This document shows positions 17,459-26,578 of a stretch of DNA of 64,000 nt, one piece after another. Location of the stretch: assembly GCF_016599855.1 (NCBI RefSeq), contig NZ_CP067041.1:1364001-1428000 (forward strand). Reading direction: 5' to 3'. The translations under genes and the position numbers were made by a program. A model generated the notes under the pieces. That model made no database searches. It was not told the DNA's origin and saw only the letters and a program-made list of their open reading frames with translations. Origin of the DNA: Bradyrhizobium diazoefficiens (GTDB taxonomy: Bacteria; Pseudomonadota; Alphaproteobacteria; Rhizobiales; Xanthobacteraceae). The stretch's first letter is position 1. Every line of letters starts with the position of its first letter.

Positions 17459-18049
17459 TCAGACCGGTCGGTTCTGGTTGCGGTTCTTCACGGGTCCCAT
17501 CCGCTTCAGCCCGTCTTCGTAAGGGATCTCGTCACAGGAGACATCGAGAGCCACGACTGCCTCGAGCAGGTAATCCAGCTTGCCGCCTGCATCGAACTTC
17601 TTGAAGTCGTTCTTATTGAGCCCGGCGAGGTCCATCATCTCTTTCCAGACGGTCGATTCATCGCACGGTAGGATCTGAAAGGTGATGTCGCCGATCTTGG
17701 TCCGGTACTTCGCCAACAGATCTATATTGTTGCAGAACATGAAGTAGCGCCCGTCAGGCCTCAGCGCGCCGTCAAGAACGCTGCCGACGTCGGAGAGATA
17801 GGCCAATGAATGCAGATAGCCGGCCAGCACCGGGATCGTGCTTTCGCCCTCCTGCACGACCGTCAAGACCTGCTCGATTGAATATTCCGGCGGCCGCTTC
17901 TCGTCCGCGAGCTGGGCCTGGAACTTCAACGCGATATCGCCACGAAAACCGAAGCGGCCAGGCTTGGCGGTCTCGCCCTTGAGTACGGCGTTGAGAAGTC
18001 GTCCCTCCTTGTCCAGTCGGCCGAGCGCGGTGTTCTCGATTGCAGTCAT
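17459..18049 (-). CDS. Unknown protein with sigma-54 promoter, divergent from the nifS operon
   Basis: A 196-residue soluble protein I cannot assign to a named family. The start at 18049 has GAGGACG upstream and a sigma-54 promoter about 55 bases away. The sequence is acidic/basic mixed with no membrane segments. Notable stretches are GRFGFRGDIALKFQAQLADE, VLAGYLHSLAYLSDVGSVLD and RYFMFCNNIDLLAKYRTKIG, then a C-terminal part with two cysteines (LPCDE, VSCDE). It faces iscA-nfu-nifS across a 277-base region with promoters in both directions, so a nitrogen-fixation role, perhaps Fe-S related, is likely by position only. A truncated relative with a copied promoter sits at 10935-11297. Confidence 0.8.
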   Translation of the reverse strand: MTAIENTALGRLDKEGRLLNAVLKGETAKPGRFGFRGDIALKFQAQLADEKRPPEYSIEQVLTVVQEGESTIPVLAGYLHSLAYLSDVGSVLDGALRPDGRYFMFCNNIDLLAKYRTKIGDITFQILPCDESTVWKEMMDLAGLNKNDFKKFDAGGKLDYLLEAVVALDVSCDEIPYEDGLKRMGPVKNRNQNRPV

Positions 18050-18104
18050 GAAAATCGTCCTCGATCTAAGCTCATCGCCGGCCCTCGACCGGCACAACAC
18101 GGAA

Positions 18105-18120
18105 TGCAAATTGCTTGCCG
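18105..18120 (-). promoter_or_regulatory. Sigma-54 promoter of the unknown gene
   Basis: Minus strand CGGCAAGCAATTTGCA, GG-N10-GC. The predicted start is about 45 bases before the ATG at 18049. It is identical to the core at 11281-11297. Confidence 0.75.
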
Positions 18121-18193
18121 GCACTGGGCTGCGCTTCACTTGCGTAGCACCTGAAGAAACGAGACGTGCGCGCTTCACTCCCGAAAACAGCAC

Positions 18194-18268: not shown

Positions 18269-18285
18269 CTGGCATGCGAATTGCC
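18269..18285 (+). promoter_or_regulatory. Sigma-54 promoter of iscA-nfu-nifS-nifT-SIR2
   Basis: CTGGCATGCGAATTGCC has GG and GC spaced by 10. The predicted start is about 30 bases before the ATG at 18327. Confidence 0.8.
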
Positions 18286-18326: not shown

Positions 18327-18641
18327 ATGATCAATTTGACAAACAACGCACTGAATGCGGTCAGGGGCGTGATTTCAACATCGGGAGCGAGCGGCTTGCG
18401 CATTACGGTGGAGTCCGGCGGCTGTGCCGGGTTCAAGTACATCATGGGCTTGGCCAATGAGACGAAATCCGACGATACCGTGATCGAACGCGACGGGATC
18501 AAGTTGTTCGTCGACAACGACAGCCACAAATATCTCGCCGGCACCACGATTGATTTCGTGCTGGCGCAGGAGGGCTCGGGATTTACCTTCGATAACCCGA
18601 ACTCCAAGGCGAGTTGCACGTGTGGCAAATCCTTCAGCTGA
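18327..18641 (+). CDS. IscA/HesB-type Fe-S cluster carrier
   Basis: A 104-residue A-type carrier protein. The three conserved cysteines are present: one in ESGGCAGFKYIMGL and two in the C-terminal SCTCGKSF. Such proteins receive Fe-S clusters from a scaffold and pass them to apo-proteins; here the likely clients are nitrogenase components. An AAGGGTGA ribosome-binding site precedes the ATG, and a sigma-54 promoter lies about 40 bases upstream. The stop codon overlaps the next start (TGATG). Confidence 0.93.
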   Translation: MINLTNNALNAVRGVISTSGASGLRITVESGGCAGFKYIMGLANETKSDDTVIERDGIKLFVDNDSHKYLAGTTIDFVLAQEGSGFTFDNPNSKASCTCGKSFS

Positions 18642-18949
18642 TGAACGAGGTCGCAAGCATGCTGGCCGAAACCAAGCATCCAAAACAACTGCCAGCCGCC
18701 GAGGCGGACCGGGAGCAAGTGATTCGCGCCGTCCTCGAGGAGATCCGCCCCAATCTAAAACGCGACGGTGGTGACTGTCAGCTGGTTGCGATCGACGGCA
18801 CCAAAATCATGGTCAAGCTGACCGGGGCCTGTGTGCTCTGCAAGCTGTCAGCTGCAACGCTTGAGGGCATTCAGGCGCAGCTGATCGAAAAGCTCGGCGA
18901 ATTCGTTCGCCTGATCCCCGTCGCCGGGGCACCCACGGCGCCACATTGA
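18641..18949 (+). CDS. NifU C-terminal-like (Nfu) Fe-S scaffold
   Basis: About 102 residues forming only the Nfu domain, the C-terminal third of NifU. The conserved core is PNLKRDGGDCQLVAIDGTKI, then the cluster-binding CxxC in LTGACVLCKLSAATLEGIQ. The start is taken at 18641, where ATG overlaps the iscA stop; the open frame extends nine codons further upstream inside iscA. The N-terminal IscU-like and ferredoxin-like parts of full NifU are missing, so IscA plus this protein seem to replace NifU beside NifS. The stop overlaps the nifS start. Confidence 0.93.
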   Translation: MNEVASMLAETKHPKQLPAAEADREQVIRAVLEEIRPNLKRDGGDCQLVAIDGTKIMVKLTGACVLCKLSAATLEGIQAQLIEKLGEFVRLIPVAGAPTAPH

Positions 18950-20130
18950 GCAAGGCTTCAGTGGCGGTTTATCTCGACAACAATGCGACGACCCGAACGG
19001 ATCCGTCGGTCGTGCAAGCCATGTTGCCGTTCTTAACCGAACAGTTCGGCAATGCCTCCTCAGCCCATGGCTTTGGCAGGCAGGTCGCGGGCGCTATGCG
19101 GCAGGCACGCAGCAGCGTGCAGGCGTTGTTGGGGGCTGCCTATGACGATGAGATCGTCTTCACCTCTGGCGGGACGGAGTCCAACAATGCCGCTATTCTC
19201 TCTGCACTTTCGACGCAGGAGGGCCGGGACGAGATAGTCACGACCTCAGTCGAGCATCAGGCGATCCTGGCGCTGGTCGAACAGTTGGCTAAAAGCGGCG
19301 TCAAGGTTCATCTGATCGCGGTGGATTCGCGCGGCCGGCTCGACCTTGAGGCGTTTCGGTCGGCGCTTGGACCACGTACGGCGATTGCATCGGTGATGTG
19401 GGCCAACAACGAGACCGGCACCATCTTCCCGGTGGAACATCTGGCCGCCTGGACGCGTGCCTGTGGCGCGCTGTTTCATACCGATGCCGTGCAGGCCGTC
19501 GGCAAGGTATCTATTGACCTGAAGGCCAGCGAGATCGACATGCTGTCGATGTCCGGGCACAAGCTGCACGGACCCAAGGGGATCGGCGCGCTCTATTTGC
19601 GCAAAGGCACGACATTCAGGCCGCTGATCTGGGGCGGCACACAAGAACGCCAGCGCCGCGGCGGAACCGAGAATGTCCCGGGCATCGTCGGCCTCGGAAA
19701 AGCGGCTGAGCTTGCTGCAGAGCGGCTCGAACGAGCGCGCGTTCGCGTTGCTGCGCTGCGTGATCGACTGGAGCGGTCGATCTTGCAGAGCGGTCACTGC
19801 GAGATTCTTGGCGATCCCAGTGACCGACTGCCGAACACAACCAATATCGCCTTCGAGGGTCTCGATGGCGAAGCGATCCTCCATCACCTCAACCGCGCCG
19901 GCATTGCCGTGTCGCTCGGATCGGCCTGTAGCTCCGGCGCGATGGAGCCCTCGCATGTTCTGCGCGCCTTGCAGGTGCCGGCTGGTAGCCTGCACGGCGC
20001 GGTCCGCTTTTCGCTGTCCCATGAAACCACCGCTGAAGAAATCGACCAGGTCGTGCGCGCCCTGTCGGACATCCTGGCTCGTCTGCGCGGCATGTCCCGA
20101 GAGCTCGCTAATCCCGCCAGCAACCCGTAA
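18946..20130 (+). CDS. nifS: Cysteine desulfurase NifS
   Basis: PLP-dependent cysteine desulfurase that supplies sulfur for nitrogenase Fe-S clusters; about 394 residues. Typical features are VYLDNNATTRTD at the N-terminus, FTSGGTESNN, NNETGTIFPVE, the PLP lysine in MSGHKLHGPKG and the active cysteine in SLGSACSSGAMEPSHVL. The first possible start is TTG at 18946, overlapping the stop of the preceding gene; GTG at 18961 is an equally good choice and starts directly at AVYLDNNATT. It belongs to the sigma-54-driven operon starting at 18285. Confidence 0.98.
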   Translation: MSKASVAVYLDNNATTRTDPSVVQAMLPFLTEQFGNASSAHGFGRQVAGAMRQARSSVQALLGAAYDDEIVFTSGGTESNNAAILSALSTQEGRDEIVTTSVEHQAILALVEQLAKSGVKVHLIAVDSRGRLDLEAFRSALGPRTAIASVMWANNETGTIFPVEHLAAWTRACGALFHTDAVQAVGKVSIDLKASEIDMLSMSGHKLHGPKGIGALYLRKGTTFRPLIWGGTQERQRRGGTENVPGIVGLGKAAELAAERLERARVRVAALRDRLERSILQSGHCEILGDPSDRLPNTTNIAFEGLDGEAILHHLNRAGIAVSLGSACSSGAMEPSHVLRALQVPAGSLHGAVRFSLSHETTAEEIDQVVRALSDILARLRGMSRELANPASNP

Positions 20131-20147: not shown

Positions 20148-20372
20148 ATGAAAATCATGATCCGCCGCTCTCCCGAGGCGGGCCTGTCCATTTACGTGCC
20201 GAAGAAGGATATTGAAGAGAGAATCGTCGAATCCGAGCACGAGACGCTGTGGGGCGGTTGGATCAGATTATCGAATGGATGGGTGCTCTATTTGCCCGAA
20301 CTGGCAAGCGATACGCCGCTGCCGATCACGATCAATGCTAAAAGGCTTGGCGGGAACGGCGATGAACGATGA
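20148..20372 (+). CDS. nifT: NifT/FixU protein
   Basis: A 74-residue protein of the NifT/FixU family, typically encoded near nifB, nifZ or nifK. The diagnostic start MKIMIRRSPEAGLSIYVPKK and the middle ETLWGGWIRLSNGWVLYLPE are clear. Its function is not settled; mutants usually still fix nitrogen. GGAG stands at good distance before the ATG. Its stop overlaps the start of the SIR2-like gene (ATGA), showing translational coupling. Confidence 0.95.
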   Translation: MKIMIRRSPEAGLSIYVPKKDIEERIVESEHETLWGGWIRLSNGWVLYLPELASDTPLPITINAKRLGGNGDER

Positions 20373-21232
20373 AAGCAGTGCCGCAAATCACCGTTCTCAA
20401 GGGGACGGATGCGGAGGCGTTGCTCGCAGATGTTGCGGCGAGACTCCGTGCCGGCAACATTGTTCCCTATCTCGGCCCCGGCCTCGCCGCGTTATCCAAG
20501 CCTGACGTGCCACTGACACCTGATGCGCTGGCGACCTTCTTCGGCGCCAAGGTCGCGCTGCCGCGCCGGGCCCGCGGCAATGCCTGGGCTGCAGCACAGT
20601 ATATCGAGAGCAACAAGCATCGGTCCACAGTGACGGGACTGATGGCTCAGGCGTTTGCCGTGCCGGTCGAACCAACGGCCTTGCATCGTCATCTCGCTGC
20701 GTTACGCTTACCGATGATCGTCGATACTTGGTATGATGGCGCGATGCGGGCCGCACTTGGCAAGCGAGACGGATGGGGCGAAGTCCAGGGTATCACCCGC
20801 GCTGGGATCGGCGAGTTTCGCTGGTATCGTTTCTATGGCGTCGATGGCAACGAGGTCGATTCCGTGGCGGCCGGTACCTGGACCACGGTCCTCTACAAGC
20901 CGCATGGCGGCGTGCTGCCGGCAAGACACTTCCTGATCTCCGACGCCGATTATGTCGAGGTCCTGACCGAGATCGATATCCAGACGCCGATTCCGGGGAT
21001 CGTCAAGCAGCGGCGGCTTGGGCGGAGCTTTCTTTTCATCGGCTGCCGGTTCGACGATCAGCTCTTGCGCATTTATGCGCGGCAGATCACGAAGCGCTCG
21101 GCAAACGTTCACTACGCACTTGTCGAGCCGGATGCGCTCTCGCGAAACGAGCGGAGCTTCCTGCTCGACCAAGGCTTGATCCCGCTTGCGGTGCCGTTGC
21201 CACGCGCCGTCGAGATATTGCTGACCAATTAG
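20369..21232 (+). CDS. SIR2-like domain protein in the nif operon
   Basis: A 287-residue protein that looks like a SIR2-like (NAD-binding Rossmann, SIR2_2 type) domain. The N-terminal glycine loop reads NIVPYLGPGLAAL, the catalytic-histidine position is suggested by TVLYKPHGGV, and the late FLFIGCRFDDQLLRIYARQI segment is characteristic of this group. It overlaps nifT by four bases and lies in front of nifB, so it is an operon member and not a stray gene. SIR2-like proteins elsewhere hydrolyse NAD (some in phage defence) or deacylate proteins. What it does for nitrogen fixation is unknown. Confidence 0.75.
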   Translation: MKAVPQITVLKGTDAEALLADVAARLRAGNIVPYLGPGLAALSKPDVPLTPDALATFFGAKVALPRRARGNAWAAAQYIESNKHRSTVTGLMAQAFAVPVEPTALHRHLAALRLPMIVDTWYDGAMRAALGKRDGWGEVQGITRAGIGEFRWYRFYGVDGNEVDSVAAGTWTTVLYKPHGGVLPARHFLISDADYVEVLTEIDIQTPIPGIVKQRRLGRSFLFIGCRFDDQLLRIYARQITKRSANVHYALVEPDALSRNERSFLLDQGLIPLAVPLPRAVEILLTN

Positions 21233-21368: not shown

Positions 21369-21414
21369 TGTCGCATTTCCGACACGCCGCATGCTCGCTG
21401 TCGGCTGCGCAACA
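21369..21414. promoter_or_regulatory. Two NifA upstream activator sites for nifB
   Basis: TGTCGCATTTCCGACA (21369-21384) and TGTCGGCTGCGCAACA (21399-21414) are both exact TGT-N10-ACA sites, 60-105 bases before the sigma-54 promoter at 21474. Confidence 0.85.
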
Positions 21415-21473: not shown

Positions 21474-21489
21474 TGGCATGCGAGTTGCT
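21474..21489 (+). promoter_or_regulatory. Sigma-54 promoter of nifB
   Basis: TGGCATGCGAGTTGCT has GG-N10-GC, a good -24 block and TTGC at -12. The predicted start is near 21500. Confidence 0.88.
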
Positions 21490-21558: not shown

Positions 21559-23112
21559 ATGGACGCAGTGGAGCGCGGCAGTCGCGCTAAAAACGCTCGA
21601 GATGGCGGCGAGATCGTGCTGGCCGCCGAGCCTAAGCGCAGCGGCACCTCGACCGGACGCGGCAAAGCGAGCTGCAGGGCGCAGGCAGGCCGAGGCGATC
21701 TGCCGCCGGCGACCTGGAACAAGGTGAAGACGCATCCCTGCTACAGCGTAGAGGCGCATCACCACTATGCCCGCATGCATGTTGCGGTCGCACCAGCTTG
21801 CAACATGCAGTGCAACTACTGCAATCGCAAATATGACTGCGCCAACGAATCGCGCCCGGGCGTGACCAGCGAGAAGCTCACCCCCGAGCAGGCGACCAAA
21901 AAGGTGCTCGCGGTCGCCTCCCGCATTCCGCAGATGAGTGTGCTTGGCATTGCCGGTCCCGGCGATCCCCTGGCCAATCCGGACAAGACCTTCAGAACTT
22001 TTGAGCTCGTGGCCAAAGCCGCGCCCGATATCAAGCTGTGTCTATCCACCAACGGGCTCGCCTTGCCCGATCACGTCGACACCATCGCCCGACTGAACAT
22101 TGAGCACGTCACCATCACGATCAATATGATCGATCCCGAGATCGGTGCCCGGATCTATCCGTGGATCTTCTATAACCACAATCGATACAGCGGGATCGAG
22201 GCGGCGAAAATCCTGACCACGCGTCAGCTCCAGGGCCTCGAAATGCTCTCCGCCCGAGGCATTCTCTGCAAGGTCAATTCAGTCATGATCCCCGGCATCA
22301 ACGGGCGGCACCTGATTGAGGTCAACAAAGCCGTGAAGTCACGCGGCGCGTTCCTGCACAATATCATGCCGCTGATCGCAGCACCCGAGCACGGAACCGT
22401 GTTCGGTCTCAAGGGCCAGCGCACTCCGACGGCCCGCGAGTTGAAGGCGCTGCAGGACGCATGCGAAGGCGAGATGAACATGATGCGCCATTGCCGCCAA
22501 TGCCGCGCCGACGCAGTCGGACTGCTCGGCGAGGATCGAAGCGCGGAGTTTACGAAGGAGAAGATTGTGACAATGACCGTCAACTACGACCCTGAGGCGC
22601 GCAAGGCCTACCAGGCTGGAATCGAGGAGGAACGCCGCGCCAGAATAGTGGCCAGGCGGGAGAACTCGGGGGAGCATGCAGGCGGGACAAGCGATATCAA
22701 AGTACTGATCGCGGTCGCAACCAAGGGCGCTGGCCTCATCAACGAGCATTTTGGACATGCCAAGGAGTTCCAGGTGTATGAAGTTTCGAGATCCGGCGCC
22801 AAATTCGTCGATCACCGCCGCGTCGGTCACTACTGCCAGGGCGGTCATGGCGCGCAAGATGACCTTGCGGCCATCGTCCGCTCCATCAATGACTGCCATG
22901 CTGTGTTCGTCGCCAGGATCGGTGGTCGGCCTACGAGCGAACTCAACAAGGCGGGCATCGAGCCGGTCGATCAATACGCGCACGAGTTCATCGAGAACTC
23001 CGCGATCGCATGGTTCAGCTCTTACTTCGAGAAGGTGAAAAGCGGCAAGATCCAGCATGTCGACCGGGGTGACGGAGCGATCCGGCAGGACCCGATGATT
23101 TCGGTGGCGTGA
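21559..23112 (+). CDS. nifB: Radical SAM FeMo-cofactor core synthase NifB
   Basis: NifB makes the iron-sulfur-carbide precursor (NifB-co) of FeMo-cofactor. The 517-residue protein has the radical SAM motif in [15 protein letters not shown] (CX3CX2C), the [10 protein letters not shown] and [17 protein letters not shown] segments and a C-terminal NifX-like domain (about residues 380-495; [20 protein letters not shown]). The start is ATG 21559 with GGGGAAG upstream. The frame is open back to 21478, but that would place coding sequence on top of the promoter. NifA/sigma-54 control is evident. frxA and nifZ follow closely. Confidence 0.98.
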
Positions 23113-25400: not shown

Positions 25401-25445
25401 TGTCAGATTGCTCACAGCCGCGCAGCCGCTGTCAGGTTCGAAACA
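25401..25445. promoter_or_regulatory. Two NifA upstream activator sites for nifH
   Basis: TGTCAGATTGCTCACA (25401-25416) and TGTCAGGTTCGAAACA (25430-25445) are exact TGT-N10-ACA sites 70-115 bases before the promoter. Two such sites upstream of nifH are known in Bradyrhizobium. Confidence 0.92.
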
Positions 25446-25512
25446 TCCAGTGCGATCAGCGATCTCGCGAGGTTTGCAGTGCATCATCAGAAGCTTAAAC
25501 AGGAGGCCGGCG

Positions 25513-25530
25513 TTGGCACGGCAGTTGCTC
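25513..25530 (+). promoter_or_regulatory. Sigma-54 promoter of nifH
   Basis: TTGGCACGGCAGTTGCTC is a near-perfect -24/-12 promoter (TGGCAC-N5-TTGC). The predicted transcript start is near 25541, giving a leader of about 150 bases. Confidence 0.95.
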
Positions 25531-25561
25531 CTGCGATGCAGCAACACTGAGTAAGGGCTGA

Positions 25562-26578
<1,017 letters not shown>

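Follow-up and report, generated by a model that had tools for sequence, protein, structure and literature searches.

A SIR2-fold gene at the end of the nifS operon

The analysed DNA (the window) was a stretch of 64,000 nucleotides from Bradyrhizobium diazoefficiens (contig NZ_CP067041.1, positions 1,364,001 to 1,428,000). The gene in question is an open reading frame (ORF) of its plus strand, which starts with ATG and encodes a SIR2-like protein of 287 amino acids. The order of genes in the region was iscA-like, nifU C-terminal domain, nifS, nifT, SIR2, nifB, fdx and nifZ, with matches over the cut-off for nifT (Pfam PF06988, E 3.6e-28, and also TIGR02934), nifS (TIGR03402) and nifB (TIGR01290). 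As an earlier note on this DNA had claimed, the SIR2 ORF overlaps nifT by four bases, the ATGA of the nifT stop and SIR2 start codons being common to both ORFs. The same note had placed the gene between the nifS group and nifB, and this position could be refined, as the gene is the last of what looks like an operon, iscA-nifU(C)-nifS-nifT-SIR2, and nifB likely has its own promoter.

The SIR2-like nature of the product was confirmed by a match to the Pfam family SIR2_2 (PF13289, E 3.6e-20, over the cut-off), and a confident structure prediction modelled a full SIR2 domain with the SIR2 Rossmann fold. The nearest solved folds in structure comparison were those of defence NADases, ahead of deacylases, in a VIA-align ranking that covers Foldseek's own matches only, and PADLOC gave a weak match to ThsA (E 1.2e-6). 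Sirtuin deacylases carry a zinc ribbon of four cysteines; the single Cys among the 287 residues makes such a ribbon impossible here. Homologues of the protein are nevertheless often annotated as 'NAD-dependent protein deacylase'. One match to the protein was obtained in the window's genome. The dN/dS values of the gene in two comparisons (0.16 and 0.12), similar to those of nifT (0.20 and 0.12) and nifS (0.21 and 0.18), showed that it is under purifying selection.

Occurrence of the gene with nif

Three samples of genomes, partly overlapping, were searched for the SIR2 protein and nifB: the family (SIR2 threshold E 1e-3), the class (E 1e-10) and the Gammaproteobacterial class (E 1e-6, with a query from the N clade described below). 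The family sample (n = 248) gave 65 genomes with SIR2 matches and 64 with nifB, both being present in 62 genomes, and the three SIR2 matches in nifB-negative genomes (E 4.6e-4 to 8.1e-4) were set aside. All 6 SIR2-positive genomes of the class sample (n = 318) were among its 9 nifB-positive ones, and all 14 of the Gammaproteobacterial sample (n = 185) were among 18. Relatives were found, in this way, in 62/64, 6/9 and 14/18 nifB-positive genomes, and apart from the three matches set aside none was detected in nifB-negative genomes of the three samples at the thresholds used. The association was strong in Fisher tests (P of 9e-57, 6e-11 and 8e-18), which ignore relatedness and omit the three weak matches. 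A phylum sample (n = 319) contained the SIR2 gene in 16 genomes, each nifB-positive, nifB being checked in those 16 only. The SIR2 gene follows nif, as the earlier note had supposed in calling it fixed there, and it is present in most proteobacterial nifB-positive genomes sampled.

In the family sample, genomes G024 and G079 carried nifB without the SIR2 gene, and the match in G242 was a fragment near nifB. Remnants located 3' of nifT were observed in the window's genus at L045:3717-3958 and L049:2689-3041 (G242; second nifT copy in G105).

Among 44 loci examined out of the 62 SIR2-positive family genomes, 43 had nifT upstream in the same orientation, and the distance was no more than 30 bases in 35. 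An overlap of 1-4 bases with nifT occurred in nine of the 44 and is not general. The exception was locus L037, where the SIR2 gene had nifH on one side and fixAB-like genes, identified by eye, on the other. Matches were also obtained in 75 plasmid records from rhizobia, Methylococcus, Paraburkholderia or Microvirga; all four plasmid loci inspected were nif clusters, and the order in R. etli p42d was nifA-nifB-fdx-nifZ-nifT-SIR2. In clusters of the Methylococcus type (L165:7682-10798; L158, L191-L193), nifT and SIR2 were separated by a DUF6129-like gene, by genes for a DegT-type aminotransferase and a 2Fe-2S protein, and by a small gene of unknown nature.

Two nif-linked clades

The profile search of the phylum revealed four distant matches (E 1e-21 to 1e-29), again in nifB-positive genomes, representing a second clade. 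The two nif-linked clades were designated W, with the window protein and the gene 3' of nifT, and N, from Gamma- and Zetaproteobacteria (Mariprofundus, Chromatiales, Sedimenticola, Thiodiazotropha and Marinobacterium), with the gene often divergent from nifHDK. The clades matched each other with an hhalign probability of 99.8% and shared residues absent from three canonical relatives, which were 3 of the 12 outgroup SIR2_2 proteins. In a tree of 73 rows, with the 12 outgroup rows trimmed to the SIR2 part, a branch set apart each of W, N and W+N (support 91, 99 and 95, respectively), but the branches were very long.

Thirteen N-clade loci were inspected. Six (L184-L189) had the gene divergent from nifHDK, with draT in between in three of these, and nifB was located about 5.5 kb away in L152 and L154. 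No nif genes were detected at the search sensitivity in the stretches L153, L155, L182, L183 and L190; L153 gave an LRR match, and L155 gave SOD and rhodanese-ankyrin matches. The draT gene was situated between nifH and SIR2 in the N-clade genomes G966, G1021 and G927 (cf. L186:5880-6722) and about 1.1 kb away in G877.

Loss of the usual catalytic residues

SIR2 NADases use a catalytic Asn in a TxNYD motif together with a catalytic His. In the alignment, N107 of KomC corresponded to W121 of the window protein and H146 to H179; H146 is the residue mutated in structure 9xvc (H146N in its title). These positions were surveyed in 387 distinct relatives, an unevenly drawn set made of three homology listings, each limited to its best 120, plus the examined loci. 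The Asn position was occupied by Trp in 157 relatives, the W clade, and by Asn in 230, the N clade. The His position held His in 142, Leu in 12 and other residues in 3 W-clade proteins, and Met in 202, Leu in 18, Thr in 5, Ala in 2, Val in 2 and His in 1 of the N clade, so that His was absent from 244 of the 387. Asn and His occurred together in a single relative, P0285 (N clade; DINRD and KPHG). The motifs of the N clade are DINRD and KPMG. G36 of the Gly-rich loop was invariant (387/387).

A search of 30 genomes for SIR2_2 proteins not of the nif type found 13 places, of which 12 had their locus examined and the 13th, containing a stop, was left out. The loss of the Asn/His pair is specific to the nif-associated family, and old, because all 12 of these proteins keep both residues. 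A second SIR2_2 protein of the window's genome (L195, G000:C1:3463521-3463946) was canonical, with TTNYD and HG, and looked KomC-like by eye.

A usual NADase or deacylase role, which the earlier note had entertained, is unlikely because Trp replaces the catalytic Asn, and an NAD-consuming enzyme of the usual kind was rejected on the loss of catalytic residues in the survey. A link between NAD status and nitrogenase, which the note also raised, may exist. Its idea of a repurposed fold was the better one: judging by the residues, the fold was kept with its catalytic Asn replaced, and repurposing is the most likely reading. The residues also indicate that the 'deacylase' annotation is probably mistaken in this clade. 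The authors of an acetylome study in Zymomonas named the deacylase reading as their motive (PMC8600466).

Promoters and neighbouring features

The -24/-12-like sites were scored as mismatches to one pattern set for this analysis, and the pattern counts were little above chance (11 against 6.4 expected; 42 against 33 expected). The site at 18270 was the sole such candidate of the operon, and the pattern scan found no TGT-N10-ACA NifA box ahead of the operon between 17066 and 21369. Scans for sigma70 promoters and terminators gave no usable result. With the same weak counts, the -24/-12-like site of nifB overlaps the first ATG (21478) of the listed ORF, which favours 21559 as the nifB start and nifB as a separate unit.

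Table 1. Features of the SIR2 gene, its operon and the nifB region (window positions).
Feature	Position	Strand	Basis
-24/-12-like (RpoN) site 5' of the operon	18270..18285	+	2 mismatches; weak by count; supported by position, 57 bases ahead of the ATG of the iscA-like gene
iscA-like gene, first of the operon	18327..18641	+	ORF list, profile match
gene for the nifU C-terminal domain (listed ORF)	18614..18949	+	ORF list, profile match
nifS	18946..20130	+	TIGR03402 over cut-off
nifT	20148..20372	+	ORF list, profile match
W-clade SIR2-fold protein associated with nif, 287 aa	20369..21232	+	profile match, predicted structure
ATGA overlap, nifT stop/SIR2 start	20369..20372	+	sequence
Trp121 codon, replacing the catalytic Asn of SIR2 proteins	20729..20731	+	alignment
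His179 codon, aligned with KomC His146	20903..20905	+	alignment
NifA-box-like TGT-N10-ACA, first, 5' of nifB	21369..21384	+	pattern scan
NifA-box-like TGT-N10-ACA, second, 5' of nifB	21399..21414	+	pattern scan
-24/-12-like site of nifB	21474..21489	+	1 mismatch
nifB, likely start	21559..23112	+	start inferred; listed ORF from 21478

Upstream, a 244-amino-acid ORF on the minus strand (17459-18193) adjoins the operon and had no Pfam match at E 0.1; Bradyrhizobium sp. BWA-3-5 has a hypothetical gene at a like position (L167:3085-3675). Two TGT-N10-ACA boxes and a mismatch-free -24/-12-like site (25514-25529) were observed directly upstream of nifH (listed ORF start 25562), within 25401-25562.

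Possible functions of the SIR2-fold protein

Published descriptions of nif clusters include SIR2 proteins of this kind (PMC6925177, PMC8594446, PMC8600466, PMC9412634), and a mutant phenotype is described for a probable relative, PST1325 (PnfA) of P. stutzeri A1501, a protein of about 30 kDa encoded divergently from nifHDK and dependent on NifA and sigma54. According to PMC2820453, close homologues occur in diazotrophs only, with a second subfamily at 20% identity. At 0.5% O2 the nitrogenase activity of the non-polar pnfA mutant was 23%, data on complementation not being given in the paper; nifH transcription was unchanged, activity under argon was wild-type-like, and nitrate-supported fixation was absent (PMC2820453). 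PST_1325 is listed as SIR2 family in PMC11332353. PnfA probably belongs to the N clade because gene order, size, taxa and this annotation agree, and its 20% subfamily would correspond to the W clade. The earlier note's statement that no role is described was right in part only, given these printed members and the PnfA phenotype.

With moderate confidence, the protein is viewed as a PnfA-like accessory protein dedicated to nitrogenase, with a non-canonical SIR2 fold, that keeps the enzyme active under respiration. The Rossmann fold would have lost its canonical NAD-cleaving site and been retained for another task. Produced from the same nif operon as NifS and NifT, the protein would act after transcription and keep nitrogenase fully active in the respiring cell (low oxygen or nitrate), being of minor importance when no electron acceptor is available. 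Its remodelled pocket would most likely still bind a protein partner or a nucleotide such as NAD(H) or an ADP-ribose compound, ligand and target being guesses, and would thereby link redox state with the activity of nitrogenase, the supply of electrons or the repair of clusters. The W clade and the PnfA/N clade may share this job. A bolder version, put forward tentatively and with considerable doubt, is that a pseudo-sirtuin dedicated to nitrogenase and lacking the usual pair gauges respiration through NAD(H) or an ADP-ribose compound and keeps nitrogenase active accordingly. It would do so in some Zetaproteobacteria and in most of the sampled diazotrophs among the Alpha- and Gammaproteobacteria, the two clades having lost the pair at different residues.

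Several observations weigh against the PnfA-like role. PST1325 was assigned to the N clade from its gene order, size and taxa and from the annotation in a different paper, and W and N proteins share about 21-28% identity at different gene positions, so their function may differ. The window protein keeps His179 and P0285 keeps both residues, which makes some catalysis possible. The gene is dispensable, because some nifB-positive genomes do without it, including G024 of the same genus, and G242 has a remnant. The wild type itself was much less active under argon, so that the lack of a difference there could be a floor effect, and the pnfA mutant was still Nif+ on semisolid medium. The PnfA authors, relying on a weak similarity to UspA/ETF, suggested a part in electron transfer or in protection from oxygen rather than a SIR2 role (PMC2820453).

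The next best reading, considered unlikely, has the protein work alongside NifT or NifS in FeMo-cofactor or Fe-S assembly, with no nucleotide ligand and with the SIR2 fold as a mere scaffold. Co-transcription with nifS and nifT, judged by gene order, a distance of at most 30 bases to nifT in 35/44 family loci and the recurrence of nifT, nifZ and LRR genes in the neighbourhood would suit it. It is harder to reconcile with the 6/13 N-clade loci divergent from nifHDK and away from nifT, with G36 kept in all 387 relatives, and with the wild-type-like pnfA mutant under argon, unexpected for a general cofactor factor (PMC2820453).

A working NAD-dependent enzyme, either a deacylase as proposed for ZMO1821 of Zymomonas or an NADase, could use His179 and other residues and control nif proteins through deacylation or NAD consumption. 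The predicted SIR2 fold, His179 kept in 142/157 W-clade relatives and the Asn and His of one N-clade relative are consistent with it, as is the rise of ZMO1821 under N2 fixation together with acetylated nif proteins (PMC8600466). It is nonetheless improbable, considering the Trp at the Asn position in 157/157 W members, the loss of His in 15/157 W and 229/230 N members, the single Cys without a zinc ribbon, and the nearest folds being NADases rather than deacylases; moreover, ZMO1821 is likened by description, not sequence.

A role in the ADP-ribosylation control of NifH by DraT/DraG, to which the positions of draT in four N-clade genomes point, is very unlikely, as draT was present in 41 of 80 nifB-positive genomes (36/71 SIR2-positive and 5/9 SIR2-negative) and is missing from the window's own genome; the tie was rejected for want of association over the 80 genomes. 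A defence protein travelling with the nif genes, which the weak ThsA match and the nearest solved folds might suggest, hardly deserves consideration given the single domain, the nif linkage and the lost catalytic site, and was rejected with phage records giving no match to the window's protein, the only one searched.

Comparison with known systems

In the open-access literature searched, no paper was found that links the alphaproteobacterial SIR2 genes to PnfA or remarks on the lost Asn, and no SIR2 mention was found in the main text of PMC7860042. The gene itself is partly described in print; the non-canonical SIR2 reading, the two clades and the probable PnfA link are new here. If this link holds, one family accounts for the scattered 'SIR2' genes of nif clusters and brings with it a phenotype under oxygen and nitrate respiration, which bears on nitrogenase upkeep in respiring cells and on the choice of genes when nif clusters are transferred.

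The NADases ThsA, DSR2 and KomC have the canonical Asn, whereas it is replaced in the window protein, which also has no partner domain and is encoded in a nif operon; His146 of KomC is matched by His179. The sirtuin deacylases (Sir2-Af1, 1ici, and SIRT5) were less similar than the NADases, and the window protein lacks their zinc ribbon and Asn. In Zymomonas, ZMO1821 was up under N2 fixation and was taken as a likely deacetylase, nif proteins being acetylated (PMC8600466). Rcc03262 of R. capsulatus is a SIR2 family protein encoded beside NifT in a NifA-dependent nif operon, with values in the wild type and 'NF' (taken as not found) in a nifA double mutant (PMC6925177). The window gene is likened to it by description and position, both lying directly beside nifT, but the Rcc03262 operon differs in starting with nifB1 and ending with nifZT-rcc03262. 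PnfA resembles the window protein in its diazotroph-only occurrence, judged here with nifB as the marker and at the thresholds used, and its position divergent from nifHDK is that of the N-clade loci L184-L189, whereas the window protein belongs to the W clade, with its gene co-directional with nifT and not divergent from nifHDK.
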